This document shows, in pieces, positions 1 through 7,150 of a DNA stretch of 64,000 nucleotides (position 1 is the stretch's first letter; every line of letters begins with the position of its first letter). The notes beneath the pieces are model-generated. The model worked only from the letters and a program-made list of their open reading frames with translations, ran no database searches and was not told the origin of the DNA. Position numbers and translations under genes: made by a program. The DNA is from Microbacterium natoriense (GTDB taxonomy: Bacteria; Actinomycetota; Actinomycetes; Actinomycetales; Microbacteriaceae), in NCBI RefSeq assembly GCF_030816295.1, contig NZ_JAUSXV010000001.1, positions 3,038,001 to 3,102,000 of the forward strand, in the 5' to 3' direction.

Positions 1-1
1 C

Positions 2-484
2 GCTTACAACAACAAGATCGACTGCATGGTTCGCACGAAAAGCGGGAAGCAGAAGCAGCTCGACCTCGTCGGCTACATGCTCACGGAGAAGAAAGCGCCC
101 GTGTTCGTCGAGTGTAAGAGGTACACCTCGGCAGGCAGGCAGTACACGGAGTTCGTCAAGTTCCTGGCGGTCGCGTATGGGCACACGGCTCAGGAGCTCG
201 CGGACTATAACACGACCAGGGAATCTCAGTACTATTGGGTCACGTTTCACCCGTTCAATCTCGAAAACTGGTCCAACCTTGAGACTTACGAGCACATGAA
301 GAAGGCTCTTGAGGCGCACCCCGAGTACCTGGGCGGCGATGATCTCAACGAGTCGTTGGCGCATGAGGTGGCCAGTCGAGTGACCGTCCTCGTGTTCAAT
401 CCCAAGCAAGAAGCCCTCTCTCTCACTCGAGCCGAGCTCGAACAGATCCGTCCCGTTCTGCTGAGGAAAGTGAAGACACTATGA
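2..484 (+). CDS. PD-(D/E)XK nuclease-like protein, C-terminal part (5' end outside window)
   Basis: The reading frame is open to the left edge, so only the last 160 residues are visible and the ATG at 26 is probably internal. The visible part has the layout of a PD-(D/E)XK nuclease core: LDLVGYML followed after about ten residues by VFVECKRY, giving a D...E-x-K arrangement, then a QYTEFVKFL helix. A tract containing QYYWVTFHPF follows. The stop overlaps the next gene by four bases (ATGA), so the two are almost certainly translationally coupled. The complete gene could be a stand-alone nuclease or a larger helicase-nuclease; that cannot be decided here. Nuclease fold is inferred from the motif only. 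Base composition is less G+C-rich than the core genes to the right, in keeping with an accessory island. Confidence 0.6.
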   Translation, partial: AYNNKIDCMVRTKSGKQKQLDLVGYMLTEKKAPVFVECKRYTSAGRQYTEFVKFLAVAYGHTAQELADYNTTRESQYYWVTFHPFNLENWSNLETYEHMKKALEAHPEYLGGDDLNESLAHEVASRVTVLVFNPKQEALSLTRAELEQIRPVLLRKVKTL

Positions 485-1917
485 GTGACTTGATCGAGGC
501 TTTGCACGCCGCTCGCGAGTCGTACGTCAGGGAGGACTACGCGTCGAGGGTCAAGCAGGTCTTTCGAGAGCACCTCGAACTGCTCGAGCCCGATGCCGAA
601 ATCGAGGACACCCTCTACTTCAACCACAGCGCGATTCCGGACTTCAAACTCACGTGGGGACGCGGCGCGAAAGGCAAGTCGTCGCGGGACGTCTTCCTCC
701 GCTCGTCGTACGCGGCCGTGGTCGCAGGCAACGAGACCGCGCACATCACGAACGGCGACCCGATCTTCCTGTCGATCAGCGCCGATCAGGTCGTGGAGGA
801 ATCTGGTTTCGCGATGACCAAGGCTGACGTGTCGCGCGCTGCCAGCCATGCCCGATACTCGCTACTGACCGACGCTGAAGCGTTCAAGGAGATCGCAGCC
901 CCGGCGGCGGATGACAACCCGCTGAGCTCGGCCGTGCGCTCGAACTTTCTCCGGGGAGGGCGGGGGCTGGTGGATGAGCCTGTCGCGGAACGACTTCTCC
1001 TGACCGGGAACGGCACCGGCGAGAACGTCACTGACCTCATCAGAGAGACCTTCTTCGAAGACGCCGTCGTCCGAATGGAACGCACTGCGCTCCTGGTTCA
1101 GTGGGCGATGTCTCCGGATACGGCCATGGACGTGCTGGCGCGGATCGACGGCGCGATGTCCACCGACGAGCTGCGCAGCGTCCTGCCCTGGCTGCTGGGC
1201 AGAGCCACCGCTCCGAAGGGAGACGACTTCTGGACTGCGCTCGGATCGCTCTTCAATTTCGAGCAGCTCGAGAGCCTAGCTTCGGAGCTCAACGGTATGG
1301 ACCTCACCAGGCTGGTGCAGGCGAACCTGAGGACGTGGTCGGCCAAGCGCGCGTACGTGGGGCTGAACGTTGACGCCGAGGGTAACCCCGTGTCGCCGGC
1401 CGAAAGCGCCACCGACGACGACGGAACGGAGCCAGGCGGTCCGGATGAGGAATCGGAAGTTGCATCCAGCGGTTGGCGGTTCGACTCGGGAACTCTGGGC
1501 CTGGCCCTCGGCTCGACGATGATCCGCGTGAGCAATTCGGGCTACAAGCTGAAGGCCCGGCCCGGCTCGTCGACGCCGAAGTGGTCCGTGGCCGTCGGCC
1601 GCCTCGACGGCTTTTCTCTCCGTTCCGCGTCGATCTCCGGGATCGAACGGGCGTTCCGCATTGACGCGCGGGAAAGCGGGAACGTCAAGCGAGACGTCGA
1701 GACCGTCGTCAGCTCCGTCGAGGACAGTTACTTCGTGAGCCATGTCGAAGTAGTGCTCCCTGGCCCTGACCTCGGTGACGAGGACGCCGGAGCGGAATCG
1801 GCGTCAGTCGACTTCGCCGGCGGGATCGTCGTCGCGGAGCGTGCCGTCCAGCTCGGCGCACTCACGCGGGCCGCTGCGAACCTTCTGGCGAACGAGGAGC
1901 TCGACGAGGAGTTGTAG
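481..1917 (+). CDS. Uncharacterised 478-aa protein coupled to the nuclease-like gene
   Basis: I do not recognise this family. The start ATG shares four bases with the preceding stop. The N-terminal third has a PDFKLTWGRG...RDVFLRS stretch at about residues 53-78 that faintly recalls a PD-(D/E)XK strand pair but lacks the final lysine. The middle is helical. Around residues 300-325 there is an acidic, low-complexity linker rich in D, E, G and P. The C-terminal 150 residues look beta-rich and end in an acidic helix. No signal peptide or membrane segment is visible. Coupling to a nuclease-like gene and position in a restriction-modification island suggest a partner subunit of a defence module, but that is inference. 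Confidence 0.7.
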   Translation: MSDLIEALHAARESYVREDYASRVKQVFREHLELLEPDAEIEDTLYFNHSAIPDFKLTWGRGAKGKSSRDVFLRSSYAAVVAGNETAHITNGDPIFLSISADQVVEESGFAMTKADVSRAASHARYSLLTDAEAFKEIAAPAADDNPLSSAVRSNFLRGGRGLVDEPVAERLLLTGNGTGENVTDLIRETFFEDAVVRMERTALLVQWAMSPDTAMDVLARIDGAMSTDELRSVLPWLLGRATAPKGDDFWTALGSLFNFEQLESLASELNGMDLTRLVQANLRTWSAKRAYVGLNVDAEGNPVSPAESATDDDGTEPGGPDEESEVASSGWRFDSGTLGLALGSTMIRVSNSGYKLKARPGSSTPKWSVAVGRLDGFSLRSASISGIERAFRIDARESGNVKRDVETVVSSVEDSYFVSHVEVVLPGPDLGDEDAGAESASVDFAGGIVVAERAVQLGALTRAAANLLANEELDEEL

Positions 1918-2148
1918 CCGTCAGCGCCTGACGAATCCGCTGAGGAGGCAGACTAGTAGACGGGCGAAGAAGTTGTTCGGCCTGCGGAGCGTACAGGTTA
2001 AGCCGCCAGAGGCGTCAACCTATGGCAAGCGTCGGCTGCGCGTAACCATCAGTGCGCGGATCGAGATCTGGGGCTGCTTCAGAGATGTATGGCGGTCTCA
2101 GGCTCCTACTCTGGCCGTGCGCGAGCGCGGAGAGCGCGGTGTGTGAGC

Positions 2149-2645
2149 ATGGAGTACGAGGAAACCGGAGATCTGGACGGCGTGCCGGTCCGGGTGCCCA
2201 CGAGCGACGACTACCTCACTTGCACGGTCTTCGCCGGCGACTGCGAGCCGGGTCCGGGTCTCGGCTCGGACTATCACGTGGCCCGGATCGCGTTCGTCCG
2301 CCCCGAGCACGGGATCCAGAGCCTCGTCGACCCGTTCGAGGACCTGCGACAATCGGCGAGTTGTTCTCGATCAGCGCGACGAACGTCGTCCGGGCCGTGC
2401 TGCGGGCCGTGCCCATCGCGCTGGACTCGCCCGACGACGCCAGGCTCGTCGGGCTAGCCGGTTCCGGCGACGAACAGGTCGCTGCGCTGGTCACGAGCGA
2501 TGTCGGCTTCCGCCGCGAGATCCCGATTAGCGAGCAGCGGGTACAGCCGTGCATCGACGCCGACGGCATGAGCGGGACGCAGGAGTACGTCGACGAGCTG
2601 GCAACTGAGATCAGGGTGACGGTTCAGCGGGCACCGCGAGACTGA
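2149..2645 (+). pseudogene. Uncharacterised gene broken by a frameshift
   Basis: Two adjacent frames each carry half of a plausible protein. From the ATG at 2149, frame one reads protein-like sequence to about FEDL near 2345 and then becomes arginine- and serine-rich nonsense. From about TIGELFSI the second frame continues as normal protein to the stop at 2645. The joined product would be about 165 residues, soluble and acidic. The shift corresponds to loss of one base (or gain of two) around 2343-2352. It is either a decayed gene or a sequence error. No family recognised. It ends eight bases before the convergent specificity-subunit gene. Confidence 0.5.
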
Positions 2646-2652
2646 CCGGAGG

Positions 2653-3834
2653 TCACACCAAAGGTTCGAGCAGGTCCAAGTTCCCTCCGTCACCCGTCGG
2701 CCGCAAGACTTCGATCTTCTGGTCGAGGAGCGCATCGAGTAGCGCGGCTCTCGCAGATCGGGCGCGGGCCTGTTCTGCGGACACAGCGTCGATCTGACCG
2801 CGAATGGCGTCCAGGGCCGTGGCGACCCTGGTGCGCTCGCCCTCGGTCTGAGGCATTGCGACGGTTGTCGAGAACAGTTCGTTTCTGTTCACCTTCGGCA
2901 TCTTCAGACGGGTCGACAGCGCAACGGTCTGAGAAGTAAATGTGTCCTCGAGAAGGATCTCACGCAACAGAGCGGGCGGAGTGCCGTTCAGCGGAGACAA
3001 CGGATAGGCGTCCGCGCTGCAGAGCGCGACGAACCCAGGGAACGCCGCCTTGCGTAGCCTTGGTCGAATCTTCGAGTACACCACATCGCTCTCACCCACG
3101 AGGTACTTACCACTGATCACGCCATCCTCTCGGGCCGTACGCGGGTTGACGAGGCGTCCGGTGCCTTTCTCGATCACATCGACACCGATGTGCAGGAGAT
3201 CTGCGTACTCGTCGTCCTTCGGATTGACCAGCCGAGCCGTGATCTCGCAGACCGAAGCTAAGGGGACCCGAGGGCAGCCCGACAGAAGGTGCTGACGTGT
3301 AGTGGCCAGCAGAGTGGTGAGGGTCGACTCTTCCAATTCGAGGGCATCGATGTATCTGTCCGCAGCAGCGATGACCTCGACGATTCGTCGCTGGACAGGA
3401 AGGGGCGGCAGCGGGATGGTCCAAGCCTCGAAATCCGCTTCCTTCCACCGAGCGCGGCCGTCTCTTCCGTCTCTGAGCTTGTTGATCCGCTTCAGGCTGC
3501 TCTGGTTCGCGAAGCAGAGCGCGAGGAAGTGAGCGTCGAGATCGGACGAATCGACGGTGTACAGCGGAAACTCGTTCGTGACAAGCGCGCCGTCGAGATC
3601 AGCGGGCACGACACCAAAAGGGCCGTTCTGGGCATCGATACGACAGAAGATGAAGTCGCCCTTACGCGCGAGCGCCAACGCTTTCGTCTTCGGTCGACTG
3701 GCGGGGCGCAGGTACGCACCCTTTCCGTACCATCGGACGCCCATGGTGACGTAGTCCTGCCCCGACTCGATCACCACTTTCTCCGACCGTTGCTTAACGT
3801 ACTGGCCGACGGTTACGGTCGGCCAGTCAGACAT
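2653..3834 (-). CDS. Restriction-modification specificity subunit (HsdS/BcgI-B-like)
   Basis: DNA target recognition subunit. The protein (393 aa from the ATG at 3834) has two target-recognition domains, each followed by a conserved spacer helix: LPPLPVQRRIVEVIAAADR with the following coiled coil near residues 150-190, and a second helix ending ALLDALLDQKIEV close to the C-terminus. This is the pseudo-duplicated layout of type I HsdS and type IIB/IIG S subunits. I chose the ATG at 3834, which overlaps the upstream methylase stop by eight bases, rather than the in-frame ATG at 3858. The only partner gene present is the fused nuclease-methylase upstream. No separate hsdR is seen. Confidence 0.88.
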   Translation of the reverse strand: MSDWPTVTVGQYVKQRSEKVVIESGQDYVTMGVRWYGKGAYLRPASRPKTKALALARKGDFIFCRIDAQNGPFGVVPADLDGALVTNEFPLYTVDSSDLDAHFLALCFANQSSLKRINKLRDGRDGRARWKEADFEAWTIPLPPLPVQRRIVEVIAAADRYIDALELEESTLTTLLATTRQHLLSGCPRVPLASVCEITARLVNPKDDEYADLLHIGVDVIEKGTGRLVNPRTAREDGVISGKYLVGESDVVYSKIRPRLRKAAFPGFVALCSADAYPLSPLNGTPPALLREILLEDTFTSQTVALSTRLKMPKVNRNELFSTTVAMPQTEGERTRVATALDAIRGQIDAVSAEQARARSARAALLDALLDQKIEVLRPTGDGGNLDLLEPLV

Positions 3835-5683
3835 CAAACCCGCCGATGCCGGCCTCATTGAGGATCCGGGTCATGTGGTCCAGCGCTACGTCTCGTTGCG
3901 CGCGCGCCTCCTGCCAATCGGCCACCGCTTCGTAGAGGTCGTGGGTCTCGGCCTGAGGCCACGGGTTCCGGCGGATGCCGCGAGCATCGAGGACCCCGGC
4001 GTCATCGAAGATCGCGGTGCGCCACGATCGCGCGTCGGGGCTCTCGACACCGTCGCGGATCGCCCGCTTCGCCAATCGAGAGATCTCTCGCCAGCGGCCG
4101 ACGTCCTTCCGTCCGTGGCCGACCTGCACCTCGTGGCCGTCATCCTCCATGTCGATGAAGGTGACCAAGGCGTCGCGCTCATGGCCGTTGCTGGTCTTGG
4201 TGAAGCCGAAGATCGACGTCTTGACCGTGCGTCCCTGCTCGAAGAAGAGCTGCTGCGGCATGTCGATCACGAAGTCCAGGCGTGCCCGTTCCAAGATCGT
4301 CTTCGCGGCCTTTGGGTCCTTCGAGAGCGTGTTCACCGGCATGATAATCACCAGCTGACCGCCCTCTTCGAGGTACTCGATCGCAGACATTGTGAAGTTG
4401 ACAGGGTTGTCGTGCTCGTACGGCGGATTGATAACGCACTTCGTCGGCTTGAGCCCCTTGACGTAGCGCTGAAGCTTCATGTCCGCAGGCTTGACCGTGA
4501 ACGTGCGGTCGCGGGTCACCAGCGAATCGCGGAACATCAGGTTCGAGCGGCCGTCGCCGTGCAGGAACATGTTGGAGCAGGCCAGAGCGAAGAGGACGGG
4601 GTCGAGCTCAAGGCCGATCAGCTGCGTCTCGTGGATGCTCTCGATCCTAGTTTCGTCGCCGTGGGCCTTGTCTACGAGTTGTTCCATGGCGTCCATGAGG
4701 AATCCGCCCGACCCCATACAGGTGTCGAGGACGACGTCGTCCTTGCCCAGACGCACGAGGTCGACCATGAGGGTCTTGATGTGGTCGGGGGTCAGGATGA
4801 TGTTCTTGTTGTCCATCTTCCCCGCCCGGGAGAGGAAGATCTTGTACGCGCGTCCTAGGATGTCGCGCTTCGTCGTCCGCTTTGAGGGCTGGTGGACGCG
4901 CTCGTCGATGTCATCGATGATCGACTTATACTCGACAAGAGGGATGTCTACGTTCTTGACGAAGGAGAAGCGGTCCTCCCAGTCAATCTGCTTGGACTCG
5001 GAGTTGACCTTCTTCACGAGCTGCCGCTTCACCGCGGCGACGATCTGTTCGTTGAGGTAGCGCGCTTCGACGAGACGCTCATCCTCAGGCTCGCTCACCG
5101 AGCCGTACATGTTCCGGAACGGCTCGTCGTCGAGGGCGATCATGAGGGCCGAGAAGAAGAGCGAACGCTCCGTGTCACGGACACGGGAGTCCTTGTGGAA
5201 TCGCACATTGAGCTGAGTGAGGAAGCGGGTGAGCTCCGCGTCCGACAGCGGGTCGCCGTGCGCAGCAGCCAGGTAGTGCTTCGTCAGAGTGTCGAGGCTC
5301 ACGAGAGCGCGCGGCTTGTCGAGCTCCTCGATCAGCTCAGAGCCGCCCTTGCGGAAGAAGTGGGTCACGCGGAGCGACTCGAGCGTCTGACCGGAGACGG
5401 CGATCCCGACGATGTCGACGTGCGGCACTGCGTTGGCCTGCATGTACATCTGCACCTCGGCCTCGGCCGCAGAGTGGTCAGACTTCAGTCCAACCTCGCC
5501 TGACTTGGCCTCGACGACGATCAGCCAATCGCCCATGTCCAGGAAGAAGTCGGGAAAGCCGTCGACCGTCGAGCCCTCGCGCTTGGACTGGAAGCCGAAC
5601 TTCTTCGGGATGTCCCGCTTCTCCAGGAGCGTCTGGGCACCGTAGAACTCGCGGAACAAGTTCTCGGTCGTGCTCTCTGCCAA
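3827..5683 (-). CDS. Fused endonuclease-N6-adenine methyltransferase (BcgI-A-like RM subunit)
   Basis: Bifunctional restriction-modification protein, 618 aa. Residues about 30-75 hold a PD-(D/E)XK nuclease core: P44-D45, then E58-A-K60 in VVEAKSGE. A helical region follows, and from about residue 270 an HsdM-type methylase with AdoMet motif I (LDTCMGSGGF, about 318-327) and the catalytic motif NPPY at about 417. Length and architecture match the A subunit of BcgI-type enzymes, which cut on both sides of a bipartite site and use a separate B specificity subunit. The start is a TTG at 5683 preceded by AAAGG. It is co-transcribed with the specificity gene. BcgI-like is an inference from domain order. 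A type I-like enzyme with a nuclease fusion is the alternative. Confidence 0.82.
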   Translation of the reverse strand: MAESTTENLFREFYGAQTLLEKRDIPKKFGFQSKREGSTVDGFPDFFLDMGDWLIVVEAKSGEVGLKSDHSAAEAEVQMYMQANAVPHVDIVGIAVSGQTLESLRVTHFFRKGGSELIEELDKPRALVSLDTLTKHYLAAAHGDPLSDAELTRFLTQLNVRFHKDSRVRDTERSLFFSALMIALDDEPFRNMYGSVSEPEDERLVEARYLNEQIVAAVKRQLVKKVNSESKQIDWEDRFSFVKNVDIPLVEYKSIIDDIDERVHQPSKRTTKRDILGRAYKIFLSRAGKMDNKNIILTPDHIKTLMVDLVRLGKDDVVLDTCMGSGGFLMDAMEQLVDKAHGDETRIESIHETQLIGLELDPVLFALACSNMFLHGDGRSNLMFRDSLVTRDRTFTVKPADMKLQRYVKGLKPTKCVINPPYEHDNPVNFTMSAIEYLEEGGQLVIIMPVNTLSKDPKAAKTILERARLDFVIDMPQQLFFEQGRTVKTSIFGFTKTSNGHERDALVTFIDMEDDGHEVQVGHGRKDVGRWREISRLAKRAIRDGVESPDARSWRTAIFDDAGVLDARGIRRNPWPQAETHDLYEAVADWQEARAQRDVALDHMTRILNEAGIGGFDV

Positions 5684-5870
5684 GGTCTACCTTTCGCCGT
5701 GCGAACGCTGGTGCATCGCCTCTGGGGACCGTGTCCAAGAATGCTCAGCGACGACTACGGCGAGCAGGACGGCCCCAGACAAGACTCTCATCTTAGTAGG
5801 CGAGCTTCACATTTCGAGGGCATGGTGCGAGGCCAGGAGACAACCCACCCCCTTACTCGTCTGGCAGTCC
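5684..5870. other. Junction between accessory island and comEC
   Basis: This stretch holds the upstream region of the restriction-modification operon and the point where comEC homology stops. Reading the minus strand, comEC is normal up to the GGA codon at 5868-5870 (end of LTAVSG), then runs into four unrelated codons and a TAA at 5853-5855. The rest is non-coding. No integrase, second attachment copy or inverted repeat is visible in the window; the other end of the island should lie to the left. Confidence 0.6.
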
Positions 5871-6563
5871 GGAGACCGCAGTGAGATGGCTCAGACCGCT
5901 CGCACGCATGTCATCGTTCAGGTCTGCGGTCACGGCTCGCGTGTCACCGACCGCCAGACCGGGCAGCAGTCCTGCTCCCGGTTCGGGAAGGGCCGTCGAT
6001 CGCGACACGAAGTCGCCCTTCAGCTCCGCCGCGAGAGCGAACACGCCGCTCGCCGTCCGCTCGACCTCGGCTGCGCTCGCGAACACCACGATCGCGGATC
6101 GTTCCCCGGCATCCGTCTGCGCAGCCTGTCCCGTGATCCTGATGCCCGCGCCCATGTCGAAGCCCTCGCCGAAGTCGACGCCGACGCGGATGGGGGCGGC
6201 GGCATGGGCGACACCGCCGGGCGACCCGATGCCGGTGAGCTGTGCGTCGAACCACAACCGCCCGTCCTGCCCGATCGACGCGGACGATGTGATCTCGGCC
6301 GTCGCCTCGACGATCCGCCCTCCCCATGCCGTCGCCTCGGCGCGCCCCGGCAGCGCGAGCGCCGCCGACAGCGCCACGGCGGCGCCAGAGGCGAGGATGA
6401 CGACGGTGAGAGCGCCTCGGCGGCGCCAGACCGCCAGCGCGGCGACCGCGGCGACGATGCCCGCGCCGACGGCCCAGACAGCGGCTGCGGGGACGAACAC
6501 GCACAGCAGCGCCACCGCCCATACGGTGCCGGCCAGTGGAAGCAGGCGCAGGTCGCGCCTCAT
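5853..6563 (-). pseudogene. comEC: comEC, N-terminal fragment (truncated DNA-uptake channel protein)
   Basis: ComEC/Rec2 forms the inner-membrane channel for single-stranded DNA uptake in competence. Only 236 residues remain of a protein that is usually over 700. The N-terminal membrane helices (residues about 8-75) and the extracellular OB-like domain (about 78-190) are present. Sequence then reaches DMRASGLSHLTAVSG, the start of the conserved competence domain, and stops four codons later. All channel helices and the C-terminal metallo-beta-lactamase domain are missing. The start ATG overlaps the comEA stop (ATGA), the normal operon arrangement. The break coincides with the accessory island, so insertion of that island is the likely cause. 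DNA uptake through this locus should be lost. Confidence 0.88.
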
Positions 6564-7150
6564 ACCCGCACCCCGTCGCGGATGCCTTCGAGCAGCTTCT
6601 CGCCGATCCCCGGTACGGCCAGCAGATCGTCGACCGAGGCGAACCGGCCGTTCTCGTCTCGCCAGGCGATGATCCGCTCGGCCAAGGCAGGCCCGATGCG
6701 CGGAAGAGTCTCGAGCGCCGTCTGATCCGCCGTGTTGAGGTCGATCCGGGTATCCCCGGGAGACTCCACGGGTGCTCCCGCCTGGCCGGCCCCGCTCGTC
6801 GGAACGATGATCTGCTCGCCGTCGGTGAGAGTCCGCGCCAGATTGACGCCGGTGAGATCGGCGTCGTCGGTGGTGCCGCCCGCCGCGGCCACCGCGTCGA
6901 CGAGCCTGGCGTCGAGTTCGAGAACGTAGAGGCCCGGTGCATGCACGGCACCGAGGATGTGGACGTACAGCTCTCCTGTGGCAGTCGCCGTCGACTCGGT
7001 CAGCGGCACCGTCTCGGTGGGCGCAGCCTGGCCCCGCATGATCCCGAGACCGACCGCGGCGGAGAGCACGACAAGGCCGAGCACGACCGCGGCGCCGACG
7101 CTCAGCCGCAGCTTGCGGGGCGGCGCGAGCGGCGGCTGCGAGTCGGGCAT
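6560..7150 (-). CDS. comEA: ComEA, membrane-anchored DNA-binding competence protein
   Basis: ComEA binds incoming double-stranded DNA at the cell surface. The 196-aa protein has a single N-terminal membrane anchor (about residues 17-38), an SLBB-type domain (VHILGAVHAPGLYVLE, about 65-115), and two C-terminal helix-hairpin-helix motifs (RIDLNTADQTALETLPRIGP and FASVDDLLAVPGIGEKLLEG). It appears intact although its partner comEC is truncated. A TAACGT -10-like box at 7157-7162 lies six bases before the ATG, which suggests a leaderless message. Confidence 0.93.
   Translation of the reverse strand: MPDSQPPLAPPRKLRLSVGAAVVLGLVVLSAAVGLGIMRGQAAPTETVPLTESTATATGELYVHILGAVHAPGLYVLELDARLVDAVAAAGGTTDDADLTGVNLARTLTDGEQIIVPTSGAGQAGAPVESPGDTRIDLNTADQTALETLPRIGPALAERIIAWRDENGRFASVDDLLAVPGIGEKLLEGIRDGVRV

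Follow-up and report, generated by a model that had tools for sequence, protein, structure and literature searches.

Large serine recombinases (LSRs) are defined by a Resolvase and a Recombinase domain followed by a zinc-ribbon C-terminal part, and comprise about 450-600 aa. Their att sites show a short core and symmetric attP arms, and the exchange is reciprocal; integration takes place between attP and attB, and excision needs a directionality factor. Serine recombinases are also found on the staphylococcal cassette chromosome (SCC), a group of islands that occupy one chromosomal site and bear defence genes, some of them without a recombinase. SCC is defined by a CcrA/B/C recombinase acting at rlmH, a gene that is kept intact. 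The comEC islands described below share with SCC the single site, the serine recombinases, the defence cargo, and the occurrence of recombinase-less islands; SCC leaves rlmH intact, whereas comEC is cut in two here. The island of the present locus does not belong to SCC/Ccr: its target is comEC, and it matches the NCBIfam models of CcrA (24 bits, cut-off 700) and CcrB (23 bits, cut-off 900) far below cut-off.

The closest described systems are streptococcal. The serine-recombinase elements Phi1207.3/Tn1207.3 insert in comEC, according to the available part of the report (PMC4260502), which corrects the initial annotation of the present locus, where insertion at this comEC site was not known to be described. 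Like Phi1207.3, Tn1207.3, and Phi10394.4, the island presented here is a large serine-recombinase element at a fixed dinucleotide in comEC (celB in pneumococcus). As far as that part of the source goes, it differs from them in its core, which is GG (CGG) and not the GA of Phi1207.3, in carrying a relaxase and a coupling protein where the Phi1207.3 elements carry prophage genes, and in residing in another phylum (PMC4260502). Integrases likewise recurrently target competence genes across species, with elements in comM, comYC, comFA, and comK; these hit other genes, and comEC is not among the disrupted genes named in the accessible text (PMC4774983). In Piscirickettsia, comEC is likewise interrupted by mobile elements, at non-identical positions and in an eroded gene, in contrast to the one exact codon used here; in the portion available, the same source calls disruption of comEC by mobile elements rare and limited to some isolates of S. 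pyogenes and S. pneumoniae (PMC12955456). No actinobacterial comEC insertion was found among the matches listed in a search of titles and abstracts of open-licence papers. As an attachment gene for serine-recombinase elements, comEC is known in streptococci (PMC4260502); judged by the matches listed, the actinobacterial case appears to be new, and so may be the stand-alone C-terminal proteins.

A comEC Gene Split at One Codon

The window, i.e. the whole stretch of 64,000 nt that was analysed, corresponds to G000:C1:3038001-3102000 of the Microbacterium natoriense genome (G000), with window base 1 at 3038001. It covers one part of comEC and the adjoining end of an island:

1..5868, no strand, right end of the integrated element (Pfam comEC parts and blastn against G110)
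1..484, plus strand, cargo ORF entering from left of the window (191 aa, G000:C1:3037909-3038484)
481..1917, plus strand, cargo ORF of 478 aa without family match (Pfam, PADLOC, PHROGs)
2653..3858, minus strand, restriction specificity subunit, Methylase_S (Pfam, PADLOC)
3827..5683, minus strand, type IIG-like restriction enzyme-methyltransferase, N6_Mtase (Pfam, PADLOC)
5843..5849, minus strand, attR element-side half-site motif GGTGGGT, 21 nt from core GG (junction comparison)
5853..6563, minus strand, comEC 5' fragment of 236 aa (ORF and Pfam)
5869..5871, minus strand, crossover core CGG, common to both flanks and the empty site (blastn against G110, junction table)
6560..7150, minus strand, comEA in the chromosomal flank, upstream of comEC (uninterrupted ORF)

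Alongside comEA and comEC, the minus strand holds a neighbour that we take to be leuS. As the initial annotation had it, comEA is intact (7150..6560), and ComEC stops four codons after LTAVSG, the terminus in the ORF list being HLTAVSG-LPDE-stop. The window piece matches positions 1-31 only of the Pfam family Competence, with 22 bits, which alone is below the family cut-off. The rest of the gene, thought to be gone, is indeed missing from the window but not from the genome: Competence positions 28-265 are encoded at G000:C1:2984796-2985500 on the same (minus) strand, 58,373 bp to the left and thus beyond the island, where the 3' part had been expected. The break lies at window 5868/5869, and the whole element spans G000:C1:2985496-3043868 (58,373 bp). 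Its G+C content of 63.6% against 67.3% and 69.1% in the fetched flanks bears out the low value noticed left of comEC.

Among the 366 genomes that form the genus group, G110 is the single one of the same species without the island. Its comEC is contiguous, with 96.1% and 98.9% protein identity to the two split parts, and the genome gave no match to the island recombinase at 1e-40. A related strain with the same short comEC and no island had been named as the observation that would speak against an insertion; in G110 the gene is full. Both flanks align to this draft genome at 98.6% and 98.7% (blastn of the G000 region), and the alignments overlap by 3 bp (CGG), i.e. the base before the LTAVSG glycine codon and its first two bases; in several other genomes only GG is common to both sides (junction table). 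Since the flanks overlap by just these 3 bp in the empty-site genome, the insertion is conservative and located at the glycine codon, with no bases lost or duplicated outside the core (G000 versus G110). A direct repeat longer than the core was not found at the two ends, the longest common word (10 bp) lying in unrelated places; the lack of a long terminal repeat fits an LSR. Of the repeat anticipated near the break, the related att sequence on both sides is present, but the common core is merely CGG.

Displacement of the comEC 3' part by an assembly error or a chance rearrangement is so improbable as to be negligible: the genome forms one contig of 4.19 Mb with the break away from the contig end, the flanks are colinear with G110 with the exact 3-bp overlap, and the same break is found in other genomes of the genus; nothing was found in favour of such a displacement.

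Recombinase and Attachment Sites

A recombinase gene had been expected at the far end of the island, and one was found there, outside the window:

G000:C1:2985532-2987082, plus strand, LSR ORF, 31 bp from the comEC 3' part and divergent from it

The protein comprises 516 aa from the chosen ATG, the frame being open further upstream. It matches Resolvase (PF00239, 4.6e-20) and Recombinase (PF07508, 1.2e-15) over cut-off and Zn_ribbon_recom (PF13408) with 24.4 bits, just under the cut-off of 25.3; in PHROGs it falls into an integrase family (E 2.1e-79). In the PDB, its sequence matches the SPbeta (YokA) integrase alone, in entries 9dxh (E about 5e-7) and 9dxd (about 7e-7). By its predicted domains it is an LSR with a marginal zinc ribbon, and the enzyme is presumably active. 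A phage source yielded distant relatives alone (143 records of a phage collection, 36.6% identity at best among the matches listed), a plasmid source seven distant records (best E 1e-38), and no LSR relatives were found in viral contigs.

With the element-side halves read outward from the core, and the pattern picked after the junctions had been inspected, both ends of the G000 element carry GGTG[AG]GT exactly 21 nt from core GG. On the comEC 3' side, GGTG[ACG] or GATGG is located exactly 21 nt from the core in 12 of 13 LSR loci, and on the 5' side the arm motif occurs at 21 nt in nine of ten LSR or scar loci. The exception is G297 in both cases, with GCATGCGT on either side; here, two LSR genes are arranged in tandem beside the comEC 3' part (L137:2054-5021). 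In a control with a range wider than 21 nt and the GATGG variant omitted, GGTG[ACG] starts 16-23 nt after 194 of 5086 GG positions in the window (3.8%). The G000 junctions have the short core, the reciprocal exchange, and the symmetric arms of LSR sites.

Cargo and Class of the Element

The island encodes a relaxase of the MobA/VirD2 type, the genome's sole PF03432 match, and a VirD4/TraG-type coupling protein (Pfam). PF19044 (VirB4-type), which stands for one part of the conjugation machine alone, has no match above cut-off in the whole genome; on this search the island does not appear to carry the full type IV secretion set with a VirB4-type ATPase by which ICEs are recognized. Of the 57 picked island ORFs, those of at least 350 aa were all scanned with Pfam, a survey which small or diverged type IV secretion parts may escape. 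As a relaxase and a coupling protein occur without a PF19044 match, the element is called mobilizable and not self-conjugative, and the island is probably an integrative mobilizable element. Phage structural or lysis genes gave no match in ten proteins (the LSR and nine of the 57 ORFs).

The restriction-type genes reported left of comEC are confirmed by Pfam and PADLOC as N6_Mtase and Methylase_S. The 191-aa ORF showed no family match in its part 26-481. Elsewhere, the island holds a DUF3644 protein (PADLOC candidate PDC-S19, 1.5e-77), an AAA ATPase with matches to AriA and Old, and a UvrD-type helicase. Type VII secretion is represented by an EccD-like protein (over the Pfam but under the NCBIfam cut-off), an FtsK/EccC-like protein with three FtsK stretches, and an ESAT6_3 protein. 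Type VII genes and a 779-aa protein without family match are located inside the island at L005:765-8768 and L004:16678-19014. Apart from the recombinase, 12 of the 57 ORFs were matched (tblastn, 1e-10) in 24 other composite stretches, some of which include just part of an island. G000 and G063 have in common the relaxase and the small gene that precedes it, together with an HTH gene and a further small gene.

The distant comEC 3' part, the LSR, the att sequence on both sides, and the empty site in G110 all agree with the integrative element proposed initially, and it is very likely that the island is an integrative mobilizable element using comEC as its attachment gene by means of the LSR. The LSR would join attP to attB at the GG core within the glycine codon of ComEC LTAVSG-AN, thereby cleanly splitting the gene, so that its 5' part adjoins comEA and its 3' part the recombinase gene. 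If attL and attR recombined with the aid of a directionality factor, the element would be excised and the exact comEC sequence rebuilt. Transfer may proceed through the conjugation machine of another element, as the relaxase and the coupling protein suggest.

Recurrence at the Same Codon

The Competence domain is present in 360 of the 366 genus genomes. Re-examination covered 23 genomes, i.e. 22 with weak, split, or double Competence matches and G110; the intactness of comEC in the others is judged from E-values, and coordinates are from best rows alone. comEC is split at this codon in 13 of the 366 genomes, counting G000. Where both parts share a contig, the insert ranges from 15 to 148 kb, with sizes of about 15 kb in G238, 16 in G282, 18 in G072, 27 in G270, 42 in G074, 47 in G063, 58 in G000, 95 in G016, and 148 in G040; in G118, G211, G297, and G324 the parts lie on different contigs. 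The core is matched on both sides in 12 of these 13 genomes, the weakest case being G324, where the 3' part begins 46 nt from the contig end and lacks the GG. Left out of the count are G201 and G294, whose genomes are incomplete and match comEC weakly. Further breaks, in G124, G179, G191, G231, G070, G272, and G283, were rejected, as they are explained by contig ends, frameshifts, or an internal deletion, or the codon itself is intact.

LSR relatives (E 1e-40) occur in 20 of the 366 genomes, eight of them, G000 included, with the gene at the same comEC codon beside the 3' part, and 12 with it not beside comEC within the fetched flanks. Among seven named LSR loci, six are in comEC at the same residue, namely those of M. 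hydrocarbonoxydans P30, Microbacterium CBA3102 and A20 (not independent, as they are identical to G074, G016, and G211 or nearly so), a Microbacteriaceae MAG, and two Cryobacterium; the seventh, of Arthrobacter Hiyo8, is outside comEC. A family sample of 398 genomes yielded four LSR matches besides G000: G834 and G911, which represent two further genera (one of them perhaps Cryobacterium), have the LSR in comEC at the same codon, and those of G940 and G1049 are not at comEC in the fetched flanks, the G940 contig ending about 3 kb past the LSR. In an order sample of 396, G000 was the sole match. This single codon appears to have served repeatedly as an attachment site, in no fewer than three genera of the same actinobacterial family. 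The LSR family as a whole has no fixed target, since some relatives with about 50% identity are located outside comEC (two in G053, and those of G940, G1049, and Hiyo8).

Islands with a Stand-Alone C-Terminal Protein

In G072, G282, and G270, an ORF at the 5' end of the island matches the C-terminal part of the LSR alone, from just before the zinc ribbon. The island of G324, whose contig begins inside the C-terminal gene, probably also carries this part as a separate protein.

L120:4636-5319, minus strand, stand-alone LSR C-terminal protein (zinc ribbon, coiled coil), comEC 5'-side island end
L118:4289-5338, minus strand, stand-alone LSR C-terminal protein, comEC 5'-side island end
G270:C205:29273-29926, plus strand, stand-alone LSR C-terminal protein, comEC 5'-side island end
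L142:40-621, plus strand, probable stand-alone LSR C-terminal protein, comEC 5'-side island end, cut by the contig start

The ORF comprises 227 aa in G282; the open frames of G072 and G270 extend further, and there the protein start is our reading. Of 14 genus genomes matching it at 1e-15, four (G072, G282, G270, and G324) have matches that end before the Recombinase domain, all four at comEC; the LSR fragment of G151 is longer (residues 227-515) and includes a stop. Among 5.8 billion proteins, a search restricted to 0.55-1.75 times the query length, so that full LSRs could not appear, returned 25 relatives of 164-327 aa. Their similar starts speak for a family of short proteins and not for a single gene in decay. 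A tree built on the C-terminal part (33 rows) separates the ten stand-alone rows from the others at a branch whose support, 91/100, falls just below the starred level; the comEC LSRs do not form a single clade in it (three changes), and the G053 pair from outside comEC is nested among them. An AlphaFold2 model (mean pLDDT 85, pTM 0.74) found the phiC31 and SPbeta integrases as best PDB matches in a fold search, with modest TM scores (0.47 at best); no PDB chain was found with the family sequence profile, and searches of viral contigs, plasmids, and phages did not turn up the protein. A ribbon-helix-helix, read by eye in the ORF before the C-terminal gene, was dropped, Pfam giving no match.

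A resolvase-domain partner was not found inside the G072, G282, and G270 islands. Resolvase-domain genes exist elsewhere in G282, G324, G303, and G100, and a helper recombinase may act in the same cell in G282 and G324. G072, G282, and G270 retain the arm motif on the 3' side, at 20-21 nt; on the 5' side, none of the four C-terminal-only islands (G324 included) has it at 21 nt. As cargo, G072 carries HsdM, HsdS, and HsdR, and G282 a C5 DNA methylase. The 14.7-kb island at the comEC codon of G238 (L184:2471-17190) harbors the type I restriction genes HsdM and HsdR; no LSR or C-terminal match was obtained there, the arm motif is absent at 21 nt, and the comEC 3' part also looks frameshifted.

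It is conceivable, if rather doubtful, that the codon is shared by two tiers of islands, autonomous LSR elements and defence-type islands without a catalytic recombinase, whose stand-alone C-terminal protein would attach to the same att half-sites and then either make use of the LSR of another element for movement or lock the site against rivals. Nothing relevant on stand-alone LSR parts was found among the literature matches listed.

Possible Consequences for DNA Uptake

Prophages in comK of Listeria are reported to excise reversibly. A comparable switch, by which the element leaves in some cells and gives back comEC, seems unlikely for the comEC islands: the precise core, both att arms, and the uninterrupted LSR ORF of G000 would return the exact frame, but no directionality factor was identified, and the C-terminal-only islands without the 5'-side arm look locked.

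Without its channel part, ComEC is presumably inactive, and a cell bearing the island would be unable to take up DNA, as the initial annotation proposed. The actinobacterium Micrococcus luteus is no longer transformable once comEC has been deleted, as stated in the accessible part of the report (PMC4322843), and recombination is said to be effectively shut down in pneumococci where transposons disrupt comEC (PMC12637031, in the portion available). For Microbacterium, an expression report was the sole find (PMC5177630, in part). That elements disable transformation to escape deletion is a published idea (PMC4774983; PMC12637031, available parts), and loss of uptake would presumably protect the island from removal by transformation.

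comEC might instead serve as a neutral parking site, targeted for its conserved LTAVSG-AN codons and its dispensability, with the loss of uptake as a side effect free of benefit. This is a realistic possibility, though one that falls somewhat short of even: the site encodes a conserved protein motif, LSRs with differing attP arms (the GGTGRGT type and the GCATGCGT arms of G297) use it, and the Competence domain persists across the genus (360/366), but competence genes are hit repeatedly elsewhere (comYC, comFA, comM, and comK; PMC4774983, in the part seen), and in two genomes a full comEC lies next to an attR-like scar, a hint, though no proof, that the gene is worth keeping.

G303:C1:1688001-1718000 (L122, L123) and G100 (L124), full comEC, attR-like scar, and second 5' copy

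In these two genomes, the scar follows a comEC 5' part on the comEA side, and after 9 or 18 kb a second 5' part is fused to the 3' part, yielding a full comEC ORF; tblastn of both stretches revealed no LSR. When the two 5' parts of G303 are aligned, the differences lie almost entirely in the first 300 or so positions, which suggests homologous recombination; those of G100 differ over most of their length. The 5' part has apparently been repaired or replaced, and the outcome is therefore not always a loss of comEC. G118 also has a second, diverged comEC 5' fragment (L134:5594-6307, minus strand), about 5.6 kb from the native one and near a gene that by eye resembles a tyrosine integrase.

Little is known so far about competence in high-G+C Gram-positives. 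With one comEC codon used by recombinases with different att arms and by restriction-gene islands, the idea that elements disable transformation to avoid curing becomes testable in these bacteria. The stand-alone proteins raise the question of whether an island can integrate or persist with the DNA-binding half of an integrase alone; if the two-tier reading is true, they would represent a novel class of integration partners or of proteins that block att sites.
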